From Datnioides undecimradiatus (Eukaryota > Chordata > Actinopteri > Lobotiformes > Datnioididae), in the NCBI GenBank assembly GCA_008933995.1, contig WARS01000036.1, positions 1,162,001-1,226,000 of the forward strand: 64,000 nucleotides of DNA, read 5' to 3'. Below are positions 30,265-64,000 of the stretch, piece by piece. Below the pieces are notes generated by a model that worked only from the letters and a program-made list of their open reading frames with translations, was not told the DNA's origin and did no database searches. How positions within the stretch are numbered: position 1 is the first letter of the stretch; each line of letters starts with the position of its first letter. The position numbers and the translations under genes are program-made.

Positions 30265-30360
30265 GTGGCTGCTGTCCGTTGCTCAGTAGGCAGTGTAGAT
30301 CCTGTGTAGCAATCAGCAGCTACATCTGGCTACTGGGTCTCCGACAGCTCTGCCTACTTC
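30265..30360 (+). ncRNA. mir222: miR-222 precursor hairpin
   Basis: The 3' arm at 30318-30341 begins AGCTACATCTGGCTACTGGG, which is miR-222-3p. The 5' arm at 30282-30303 matches the known miR-222-5p except for one G where mammals have C (CTCAGTAGGCAG). Pairing is visible: CAGTAG (30284-30289) with CTACTG (30330-30335), TGTAG (30294-30298) with CTACA (30320-30324), and the basal stem gctgtc (30271-30276) with gacagc (30343-30348). The loop is about 14 nt. The seed GCUACAU is shared with miR-221. In mammals this family represses CDKN1B and KIT among other targets. It lies about 490 bp upstream of miR-221 on the same strand, the same order as in mammals. Confidence 0.95.
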
Positions 30361-30749
30361 CTGGTCGAGCATACCCTTCCACTCCCATTGGCTCGTGGCA
30401 CATTCCAATCCTGTGATTGGCTGCAGTGTCAGGGGGGCTTCATCCTGTGACCCCACAGACAGGATATTCTCTGTGTCACAACTCCACAAGGGGCCCTTGT
30501 CAAGGCTTTTTGTGTTTTTTTCTCTCCTTCCTCTTCCACCATTCTTCTTTTAAATCTCCCTGTTTCTGCTTCTCTTTCACCCTCCCTCCCTCATGCTCTG
30601 TGAGCTTCGCTTTGTATCAAATGTCCTTGATAAGAGCTATTAAGATTCAACTATAAATGTTCTATGACAGAAATCTCAAGGAGTGATTTTGCTAAAGGAA
30701 AAGCATTAATTGATGCATGTTTGAAAAGGCTGTGCAATGAAGAGACGAA

Positions 30750-30850
30750 CCTTTGCTTTGTCCTGAACCTGGCATACAATGTAGATTTCTGTGTGGTTCA
30801 ATTCTACAGCTACATTGTCTGCTGGGTTTCTGGCTAGCAATATACACAGC
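30750..30850 (+). ncRNA. mir221: miR-221 precursor hairpin
   Basis: The 3' arm at 30808-30830 begins AGCTACATTGTCTGCTGGGT, which is miR-221-3p in full. The 5' arm at 30767-30788 (ACCTGGCATACAATGTAG) equals the known miR-221-5p. The upper stem is visible as AATGTAG (30778-30784) paired with CTACATT (30810-30816). The loop begins with the tttctgtgt sequence also present in mammalian precursors. It shares its seed with miR-222 just upstream and is presumably processed from the same transcript. Confidence 0.96.
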
Positions 30851-30933: not shown

Positions 30934-30939
30934 AATAAA
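30934..30939 (+). terminator. Candidate polyadenylation signal of the microRNA host
   Basis: A canonical AATAAA lies about 100 bp after the miR-221 hairpin on the same strand. It is the first such hexamer downstream of the cluster that I noted. No cleavage site can be confirmed from sequence. Confidence 0.35.
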
Positions 30940-32778: not shown

Positions 32779-32780
32779 NT
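32745..32780. repeat. (AT)n tract ending in an ambiguous base
   Basis: About 17 AT units are followed by the only n in the window (32779). The n lies exactly at the outer edge of the long inverted repeat that follows, which suggests a weak join in the assembly here. Confidence 0.9.
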
Positions 32781-33577
32781 GCATACAGTCCTTGCACCAC
32801 GCACGTCATCAACAGCTTATCAAAGCAACAATAAACTGCCCACGCACCCCTCCTATTACAGACCATTAGCAACCACTCGCATTGTTGGGATTCTCATAGT
32901 TGGTCCTGATGGATTTGTTCAGATCATTGAAGATTCTCACAAAAACGGCTTCAGCGGAGCTGAATTTGGGGGCTTAAGTGGTGAGAAACAGACAAGACCT
33001 GTACTGATGATGGAAATTAGTCCAATAACTGTGGGAAATAAAGGACAAATCCATTAAATGCAATTCCATTTAAATTATACCCAGTGTGTACCCATCTGCT
33101 GTTTTCATCCAGTGAAACCACATTTATGATATAATAACTGTTGTAATTGCTATCTTTTTGAGGACTATATATATATATATATATATATAGTCCTCAAAAA
33201 GATAGCAATTACAACAGTTATTATATCATAAATGTGGTTTCACTGGATGAAAACAGCAGATGGGTACACACTGGGTATAATTTAAATGGAATTGCATTTA
33301 ATGGATTTGTCCTTTATTTCCCACAGTTATTGGACTAATTTCCATCATCAGTACAGGTCTTGTCTGTTTCTCACCACTTAAGCCCCCAAATTCAGCTCCG
33401 CTGAAGCCGTTTTTGTGAGAATCTTCAATGATCTGAACAAATCCATCAGGACCAACTATGAGAATCCCAACAATGCGAGTGGTTGCTAATGGTCTGTAAT
33501 AGGAGGGGTGCGTGGGCAGTTTATTGTTGCTTTGATAAGCTGTTGATGACGTGCGTGGTGCAAGGACTGTATGCACA
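32780..33577. repeat. Almost exact inverted repeat, arms of about 400 bp, (TA)n centre
   Basis: The sequence from about 32780 to 33177 is repeated as its reverse complement from 33178 to about 33577. Every segment I compared pairs exactly: aggact at 33161-33166 with agtcct at 33189-33194, and gcatacagtc at 32781-32790 with gactgtatgc at 33565-33574. The centre lies at 33177/33178 inside a (TA)n tract, so there is essentially no spacer. Identity stops at the left (AT)n tract and its n. Such exact arms mean a very recent event, a gene-conversion palindrome or, most simply, an assembly error at an AT microsatellite. Confidence 0.9.
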
Positions 33578-54300: not shown

Positions 54301-57300
54301 AGTTACATAGAACTTTACATATAAAAAAACAAACTAACACAATAAAAAGGACTAAAACGAAATCCTGTAACAAATGATTGGTTTGGTAATCACTCAGAGT
54401 TAGATGACCCTATATCAGAATACCTATGTGATTGTCAACAAGGATGGAATCAGGTGGAATCATCTTCCAACATTAAAGTTTAATAAAGGAGGCAATGTTT
54501 ATCATTATTACTTTTACCGTAAATACTGTAATAGTACTTTCCCCCAAAGAGCAGAATCTAAAATGGAGCTAACTATATGACATCCACTCCTCCAGGAGAC
54601 CAGTAGAGGAAGTATGGATTAGGTGGTCACAGTGTATAAGTTAGACAAAACTGATTTTATATGTTATTTTATATAGAAGAAAGATAACTACTTCACATTC
54701 TAATCAATATGTGTCAGAATGGCTGTATTGTGCAGAGGAGGAAATTAAAACTAATGATACACAATCTATGCCAAATAATTTAAAAGTACCTGTTGCTGCC
54801 AGCTGCAACAAACAAGCAAAGGAGTTTTACTTACCTGTTACAGATGGTGCATCCATTCCTGATGACACGTCTGAGAGGTCCGCCTTTCTATATTTGAATG
54901 TAGTGTCATGTAAAACAGTTCATGTGTTTCTGAATTTATAAAATGCCAATACTGTGAGGACCGCTGACAAAACATCCCTGTAATAAAAATGTAAAACTCT
55001 AGTTGATTCATGATTGACTGTTAACTAATGGACTACATCAGGCCATCATTTAGCAGTATAAGCAGTAGGCTAATTAGAGACCAACAACATAATCATCATT
55101 ATTATGCCAGTGATTAGGCACATAATGACAGGTGGCATGTGAGAAACTGCAGCGTAGTGGTTTGTCTGTTTAACAAAGGTCTTTGCAATATAAGAACACG
55201 CAGTGTGTCTGTTCATGCTGTAAAGGTGCGCACCAAACATCCCTAAGAGTGCGATTCTGAAACCCAATAATGGCTAATGCATATCATATGTTTCATAAAT
55301 AAGAGCAAGAGATTAATACTTTCGTGTTTGTTTCCTGCAAAATGCCTTTTAATGACATGGAATACTGGCATCTGAGAGTTTACTTTAACGGTGTAGCAAC
55401 CTTCTCAATGCAAACCCTCTCTTTCCTCTGTTAATCTCTTTTTTGAAAGCACTTTTAATGAAACTAGATACAACCCATGCATCAGCATACAGTCATGGTT
55501 ACAGCTTTGTGAGGTTGCACGTAGGCACAGCAGTATTATGAGGGAAATGCTAAATGTTTACTATGTTTACCATGTGATTAAATACTAGCATGCTATCACT
55601 GAGTATTTCAAAATATCTCCAAGTCTTTAGGATTCATCCCCTGCGAACGATGAACATCTGTGCAAACATTAATAGCAATCCATTCAACAGCTGATGAGAT
55701 ATCTGAGTGTGGACCTAAGTGGTGGACTGACTGATTGGCTTTGCTATCTCAAGCAGCTGCATGGCTAAAAACCCTTTATTTATGATGCATAAGAACCTGA
55801 TGGTAGGATCTTATCATCCAGTGTCAAACAGAATCAAGAACAGCAATAAATAGGCCACAAAGCTGTTGCAATGTGCAAATACTTTGATCAAATAAAATCA
55901 GTAAAAAAAAAAAAAAACACATTGTTATTCATTAGGCTTTTTGCATCTTTTTCCAGAGAACACTTTCTGTTCCTCTTTTACAAACTGACAATTGTCAAAG
56001 TTCCTCTTTTCTGCTCCCTATTTTATTTGATGTTGTAAAATAATTGTGCAGCGGATCCAAAAACTGAGCTGCACAATGTTTAATTACCACACTGAGGGGA
56101 AAAAGATTGTATACACAAAACCTTGATTGATCACAGACATCAGAACAGCTTTTGATTTCTCACAGCTATACTTTGTTCTGATTCATTATTTTCTCCACGA
56201 GATTTTTCTATGCTCAGACTTCATTCAGATAAAACAGTTTCTGCCGCAGCTGGTCAACTGGATGCACCATGGGGACATTTAATGAGGCATCATGTCTTTG
56301 TTATGGCGATCTGACTGTGGCATGTTGGCAGTAGCCTGTATATGGTGCAAATTCAGGACACAGTTTGCAGGGATAACAGGCTTCCCAGAATGCTCAGAAC
56401 TGAAGCACTGAACGAGACTTGCTAAAAAAAAGTGTTTTGATGAAAAAGAGCAGAAATCTCATTGCTGCTTCCTCAATCGTGTAGCAACTGTCTGAATATG
56501 AAACTGTCCTATTTTTTTATAGCTTTAACAGTCATGGACCATCCAGTGCAACACATACTACACTGTGTAACAGCTATTATTAACTGCCTAATACACTAAC
56601 ATCAATACGGCAGTCTGCAACAATACACCATCTGTATTGTTATCACTTGCTCAGTAGCCCAGAATTGTTTCCTCTCTTGCTTTTGGTTGAAATCCAATGT
56701 TGCAGTGCTTTTTGTTAAGCTTCTAATTCTCTCTGAATTGTTAAGGTCCTTAAATAGGATATATCCCATCTTGAATATAGGGAGCATACATCAAATCATG
56801 CATCAGTAGTTAATTCCACCATTTGAAAGGATTAAGAACACTCAGAATTTTGATTGAGTTTTGATTTTCCTTTGTCTATTATGAAGCATTAAACTGTGCA
56901 GAAATACTGTCGAGGGCATGTTGTGTGTGGCAGTGTTTTGATGGAGAATCTCATATTGGACTACATTGTTAGTGTTTCTGTGAAAGTACATAACTGGCCC
57001 ACTGGACTGCATTTGAACTGTATGAGAGATTGCAGCAGCTATTACATTGTGCAACAAGTCACTGAAAACCTCTCTGCAGGACTGCTGCGCTAAAAACAGT
57101 GTGCAATCGTCAGGTCATTACTCTTTTTAGAGATTGGCACTATGATTCATTTATAGTGGATCTAAATTTCATCATTTTATTCTGCTAATATTCATATTGA
57201 ATCCTCACAGAATTTTATTGCACTTATATTTCCATCGTTGGACTTTAGCTATAGGTTACACATCATCTCACAGAGACCAGTGAATAAGATGAATAACAGC

Positions 57301-57438
57301 CCAATGTAAAACACAGGAGAAAGCTGCTCCACGTTCTACTAGCTCCAGGTATCCAGTTCACACTCACCCAGCTCAATCTTACTTTAATTCGCAATAAAAG
57401 TCCAACAAAGCTACGGATTTAAATAAAGACAGTTTTTG
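49991..57438. other. Non-coding stretch between the promoter-like block and kdm6a
   Basis: No recognisable exon. A (GT)n microsatellite of about 24 units lies at 51275-51323. In human, DIPK2B occupies the interval next to the KDM6A 3' end, but I see none of its characteristic sequence in this stretch. Confidence 0.45.
51275..51323. repeat. (GT)n microsatellite
   Basis: About 24 GT units. Confidence 0.95.
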
Positions 57439-58402
57439 TTTATTGACTCATAAAACATCCTTCAAACAATAAACCCATTTCAAGGTAAGGTCTCTGTACA
57501 TTGCTTACTAAGCAGTTTTATTTATATAGAAAACGTATGAGGGGCCGTGCTTAAAATCACAAGGCTCCTTCAAATTTAATGGCAGGTACTCTGGAAAAAA
57601 AAATTACAGCATTCCATGAACAAATATTTCCAAGCAATAAATATGCATTTATAAATAGTGTAAATTTACATCAAAATAAAAAAAAACACAAATTAAAGTT
57701 CACTCTTTTTATCTATGTGCAACCCTTTTTCTCTTTGACTTGGCTGTTTGTCTGCAGGTGATTTCCTCTTTCCCACCCCAAAGCCACGACAGACTCATCA
57801 TAGTTCCAGCAAAACAAAACAAAACATTTTTAGCAGATTTTTTGAAACAGGGGGAGGGGGTCTCAAAAAATGTGTCACTCAACTTTTCACATTACAAAAC
57901 AGTTTACCTTATTTTCCTGACCAAGGATGTGTCTTACATACAAAAGACCAGCTATGCTAATTACTCGTTTCATGGAGGGGAAGGAACAAAGCTCGTGTCA
58001 ACTCAAACAGAATACAAAAATGGAAAAAGAAAATGATCAAGTCAGTAGTCTTTGTGTGACGATGTTGCCAGTTGAAACAGAATATGTACAAAACTTTATT
58101 CATCATCTTTATGTGGGATTTTGTGTAGTCCTTAGTGAAGTTCAGCTGGGCCAGCAGTTTAACAGTCTGGTCATGATGACAGGAGGAGCTGCCACCCCAC
58201 TCCAGTCCACTGGGGGGAGGCACACCACTCTGGGCAGGTTGCATAGACACACAGCTTTCACGCAGCTGCCTTATGGGATAGCTACAGAGCGCCGTTAGAG
58301 GACTGCCGGCCTATTTCCTGAATATCAGGAAAAAAAAGTTTTCCGGAGTTTTGGATTAAGTCCATTGTGGTTCTAACTGTCCTCAGAACAGCAGTGTTAC
58401 CA
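57439..58402 (-). other. kdm6a: kdm6a 3' untranslated region (extent inferred)
   Basis: This region follows the stop codon at 58403-58405. Minus-strand AATAAA signals lie at 58095-58100, 57517-57522 and 57439-57444 (TTTATT on the plus strand). The most distal would give a 3' UTR of about 0.96 kb, a usual size for this gene; the proximal one would give about 0.3 kb. The region is AT-rich and has no open frame of note. Confidence 0.45.

Positions 58403-64000
<5,598 letters not shown>

Follow-up and report, generated by a model that had tools for sequence, protein, structure and literature searches.

A convergent miR-222/miR-221 cluster and kdm6a, found in two copies in the genome of Datnioides undecimradiatus

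The microRNAs of the miR-221/222 family are cut by Drosha and Dicer from one primary transcript. In human there is a single cluster, in the order miR-222 then miR-221, whose host gene MIR222HG converges with KDM6A at Xp11.3 over a distance of several hundred kb; DIPK2B lies between KDM6A and the microRNAs. On the pig X chromosome, passages of PMC4951017 place KDM6A in 44.1-45 Mb and miR-221/222 in 45-46 Mb, positions that agree with a mammalian linkage. For zebrafish, a passage of PMC4159003 cites Nicoli et al. (2012) for a role of miR-221 when endothelial tip cells proliferate and migrate. The passages of PMC4159003 and PMC10695376 that were consulted do not mention kdm6a, and no paper on a convergent kdm6a and miR-221/222 pair in fish was found among titles, the starts of abstracts and some passages, few of them from subscription papers. 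A further related system is that of lnc-pri-miRNA genes, for some of which passages of PMC11347158 and PMC6150625 describe termination mediated by the Microprocessor.

We analysed a stretch of 64,000 nucleotides (the window; contig WARS01000036.1, positions 1,162,001 to 1,226,000, here C468) from the 581 Mb genome assembly of D. undecimradiatus, which consists of 497 contigs. Features of the window and of a second copy of the locus on contig C486 are listed in Table 1.

Table 1. Positions of the microRNA hairpins, kdm6a and fundc1 (window coordinates unless a contig is named).
Feature	Position	Strand	Basis
mir-222 hairpin	30271..30352	+	Rfam RF00651, fold, arms
mir-222 arms	5p 30282-30303, 3p 30318-30341	+	borders after known mature arms
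mir-221 hairpin	30757..30841	+	Rfam RF00651, fold, arms
mir-221 arms	5p 30767-30789, 3p 30808-30830	+	borders after known mature arms
kdm6a 3' part, exons and 3'UTR (far end inferred)	57420..64000	-	Pfam, structure comparison, alignment
kdm6a 3'UTR, probable end	57433..57617	-	82.6% identity over 190 columns to C486:4232775-4232960
kdm6a stop codon	58405-58403	-	sequence
kdm6a last coding exon	58403..58429	-	border by eye, splice signals
fundc1	C468:1256.7-1257.0 kb	+	FUN14, PF04930
miR-222, second copy	C486:4233535-4233616	-	RF00651, 71.5 bits
miR-221, second copy	C486:4233103-4233186	-	RF00651, 68.8 bits
kdm6a, second copy	C486, stop codon ends 4231701	+	sequence
kdm6a AATAAA, conserved 3'UTR end, second copy	C486:4232949-4232954	+	sequence
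fundc1, second copy	C486:4204.9-4205.0 kb	-	FUN14, PF04930

The cluster and kdm6a in the window

Scanning the window against Rfam at gathering scores returned two matches, both to RF00651 (the mir-221 family) and both on the plus strand, and no other family. The miR-222 hairpin scored 74.6 bits and the miR-221 hairpin 75.1 bits (cut-off 46.6), and each covered the full length of the covariance model (1-84 of 84). The names were assigned from the 3p arms by comparison with the known mature sequences. When folded on the plus strand, miR-222 gave z = -2.83 (matched or bettered by 4 of 200 shuffles) and miR-221 z = -4.13 (by 0 of 200); on the minus strand the values were weaker (z = -1.99 and -1.88, with 4 and 7 shuffles as good). 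On the strand expected to be transcribed both form the stable hairpins of the miR-221/222 family. A reading of the sequence alone had proposed both microRNAs, in the order 222 then 221, on the plus strand and about 490 bp apart; the family matches and 3p arms bear this out, and the distance is 486 bp from start to start. The locus resembles the vertebrate cluster in its full-length match to the family model, and resembles the human MIR222HG cluster in having two hairpins with both arms readable in the order 222 then 221. Its differences from the vertebrate cluster are the 486 bp spacing and the two clusters found in this fish genome against the one in human.

By analogy with the family, a primary transcript would run along the plus strand with miR-222 towards its 5' end and miR-221 towards its 3' end, pointing at the 3' end of kdm6a. 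Drosha and Dicer would then cut the hairpins to yield miR-221 and miR-222, with 3p arms identical between the two genomic copies. An AATAAA on the pri-miRNA strand at window position 30934, 93 bp past the miR-221 hairpin, is a possible end of this primary transcript in the window copy.

No protein gene was recognised by eye in positions 1-57 kb, among the 320 open reading frames of the whole window. Four of these 320, all from the kdm6a part, were compared with Pfam: two matched JmjC (PF02373), one matched KDM6_GATAL (PF21326) and one matched nothing. The aligned kdm6a coding blocks continue beyond the end of the window, to C468:1254551. Against solved structures the joined JmjC exons scored 226.5 bits with KDM6A, 224 with UTY and at most 195.4 with KDM6B, and by this comparison the gene is KDM6A-type, the KDM6A score lying just above that of UTY and well above those of KDM6B. 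Five minus-strand AATAAA motifs lie between 56800 and 58410. The one at 57444-57439 was taken as the likely kdm6a poly(A) signal because it ends the block that is conserved in the second copy.

The miR-222/221 cluster on the plus strand and kdm6a on the minus strand converge, as had been claimed from the sequence with a distance of about 27 kb. By coordinate difference, 26,598 bp separate the end of the miR-221 hairpin from the likely AATAAA (slightly less if the later motif at 57214 is used), a 26.6-kb interval whose exact length is uncertain because a lone N and a palindrome, described below, lie inside it.

A second copy of the pair in a probable duplicated block

A genome-wide search with RF00651 gave at least four hits in two clusters, all above the cut-off; the count is a lower bound, as a first pass gave 86,662 candidates and 56 of them were scored. 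The second cluster lies on C486. Its miR-222 folded with z = -2.34 (matched or bettered by 4 of 200 shuffles) and its miR-221 with z = -1.34 (by 18 of 200), the weakest fold of the four, though its 3p arm is unchanged. Between the two copies the mature 5p arms differ at one position in miR-222 and at three in miR-221. A kdm6a homologue lies beside this cluster as well, convergent with it as in the window, and here its AATAAA is only 149 bp from the miR-221 hairpin.

The KDM6 genes of the genome were sorted with the joined JmjC exons, which gave at least eight matches in four genes. In the second JmjC exon identity was 92% for C486 and 75-76% for C478 and C10. The first exon gave close values (C486 79%, C10 80%, C478 83%) and alone therefore fails to sort C486 from the other two. 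Compared with solved structures, the second exon of C486 scored 134.4 with KDM6A and at most 116.1 with KDM6B; C478 (133.9 vs. 116.6) and C10 (131.7 vs. 117.1) were nearer KDM6B. On these scores the genes on C468 and C486 are KDM6A-type and those on C478 and C10 KDM6B-type. Clusters were found beside both KDM6A-type genes and beside neither of the two KDM6B-type genes, with these counts as lower bounds.

The likeness of the two contigs extends past the pair. Coding blocks of C468 and C486 align along kdm6a and into fundc1. On each contig fundc1 and kdm6a are divergent, and the three FUN14 matches (PF04930) of the genome occur only beside the two KDM6A-type genes. Several gene pairs thus keep one relative order in two blocks, with fundc1, kdm6a, mir-221 and mir-222 sharing both order and strand. 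At C486:4180 kb an open reading frame with a Pfam 7tm_1 match, which we take to be gpr34-like, has its best match elsewhere at C468:1406 kb, split into two pieces of 51 and 57%, other matches reaching at most 40% among the 90 of 447 candidates scored. One of the two pieces of the C468 match (1406175-1407250) carries two internal stops, which may reflect an intron, a change of frame or decay of this copy. Pfam comparison of six open reading frames from C486 also gave a TIR domain, a nuclear receptor ligand-binding domain, a kinase piece and CENP-L. From their sequence features the first three are presumably il1rapl, nr0b1 and cask, which we take to be a set like that of human Xp. Exons with DM10 domains (EFHC type) stand beside fundc1 on C468 and account for five of the nine genome matches; the other four are on C307 and none is on C486.

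Two further neighbours were sought and rejected. DIPK2B, expected between the two genes, had no PF12260 hit on C468 or C486 among eight in the genome. The candidate for rp2, sought beyond the cluster, was one of three TBCC domains in the genome, at C468:685.8 kb and 0.5 Mb past the microRNAs; it scored 34.1 bits with XRP2 and 22.6 with tubulin chaperone C and was not accepted. As at the mammalian KDM6A/UTX locus, fundc1 is divergent and miR-221/222 lies convergent beyond the 3' end of the gene. Unlike that locus, the fish contigs lack a DIPK2-family hit, and their gaps of 26.6 kb and 149 bp compare with several hundred kb in human.

Since local order and strand agree between the two blocks, they probably stem from the teleost duplication, and the simplest and most likely reading is that C468 and C486 carry ohnologous blocks. 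A rough estimate gives a randomly chosen position a probability of about 5e-5 of lying in the given half of the 26.6-kb neighbourhood of one gene, and of about 3e-7 for the 149-bp neighbourhood; since the two copies share one ancestor and are not independent, these figures show only that the neighbourhood is no accident. The claim of an old, conserved convergent linkage is supported by the pair on C486 and by the pig X positions given in passages of PMC4951017. We put a probability of about 0.93 on the reading that this is an ordinary vertebrate miR-222/221 cluster in an old neighbourhood that was duplicated, its linkage to kdm6a coming from the keeping of a whole block without a special tie between the two genes. 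Block retention needs no such tie, because fundc1 was kept in both copies and gpr34-like frames occur on both contigs.

Possible regulatory ties between the two genes

The tight layout on C486 is the surprising part of these results and the lead to follow. There a primary transcript would have about 150 bp in which to terminate; if it went further, it would run antisense to the kdm6a 3'UTR. It is conceivable, though we think it rather unlikely, that this convergence is functional, with pri-miR-221/222 either ended by Microprocessor cleavage before the kdm6a 3'UTR or entering it as antisense, so that each gene limits the other. Besides the short distance from AATAAA to hairpin, two further AATAAA motifs speak for such an arrangement: one lies 42 bp from the miR-221 hairpin on the strand of kdm6a, the other on the pri-miRNA strand at C486:4232917, within the kdm6a 3'UTR. 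Such hexamers are common in AT-rich 3'UTRs, however, and the gap of 26.6 kb in the window indicates that both genes can do without such an effect. The hairpin on C486 lies near where its transcript must end to clear kdm6a, as in the lnc-pri-miRNA genes with Microprocessor termination (PMC11347158, PMC6150625), but here the likeness is one of suggestive layout, and the main text of PMC11347158 makes no mention of miR-221 or miR-222. A more specific version, in which the two genes of C486 would form a natural antisense pair and cleavage at miR-221 would act as a terminator that spares the kdm6a 3'UTR, or that fails and lowers kdm6a, is a speculative suggestion from the layout and one that we hold to be doubtful.

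The sequence-only reading had further suggested that the pair was possibly kept by shared regulation, and this part found no support. We consider it improbable that the microRNAs target kdm6a, or that common enhancers serve both, in a way that holds the pair together. In favour of the idea, both partners were kept in both copies in the same orientation and the end of the kdm6a 3'UTR is well conserved, with an identity no different from those of the kdm6a exons, whose blastn matches span 71.2-90.1%. This segment may be a conserved post-transcriptional control element; it had no Rfam match at gathering scores, and neither did C486:4223-4233 kb on the kdm6a side. Direct targeting was rejected after a scan of the two 3'UTRs, in which one 6-mer seed site was found in 987 nt of the window copy and none in 1274 nt of the C486 copy (66 N included), with no 7-mer or 8-mer site in either. 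The 66 N, at C486:4232707-4232772, are a gap or a withheld stretch.

Shared enhancers fared no better. A blastn comparison of the whole window with 200 kb of C486 (E 1e-5) gave 13 matches, by position all hairpins, kdm6a exons or 3'UTR. A search with word size 7 (window 20000-58600 against C486:4229001-4273001) returned the hairpins, the 3'UTR and an exon, and among its best 40 rows added a TG-repeat match at E 1.9e-6 and hits with E values of 7e-4 and above. The 269 rows of a tblastx listing held kdm6a exons and many low-complexity or chance matches, which were set aside. Enhancers commonly cease to be detectable over such a span of time, and the scarcity of conserved non-coding DNA is therefore weak evidence against shared regulation. 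Retention of the block, in which fundc1 was kept too, suffices to explain the linkage.

Between the cluster and kdm6a the window holds a perfect palindrome at 32780-33575, with two arms of 398 bp and no spacer, adjoining the only N of the window at 32779. In a genome search the arm matched nothing but the two arms themselves. The palindrome is probably an assembly fault, produced by folding back or by gap filling, and less likely a fresh inverted duplication. These features would suit a linkage in the window produced by accident of assembly, which we regard as very improbable, as the pair recurs on C486 in this orientation, where no N separates the AATAAA from the hairpins, and the flanking fundc1 agrees in both copies.

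Under the preferred reading of a duplicated old neighbourhood, one genome alone suggests that the linkage of kdm6a and miR-221/222 predates the duplication of the blocks, which we take to be that of teleosts. The distances of 26.6 kb and 149 bp offer a paired comparison of whether convergent transcription of a microRNA host and a chromatin gene has a consequence. If the antisense pairing on C486 with a terminator at miR-221 were true, the tight and the loose fish copies would amount to a natural experiment on it.
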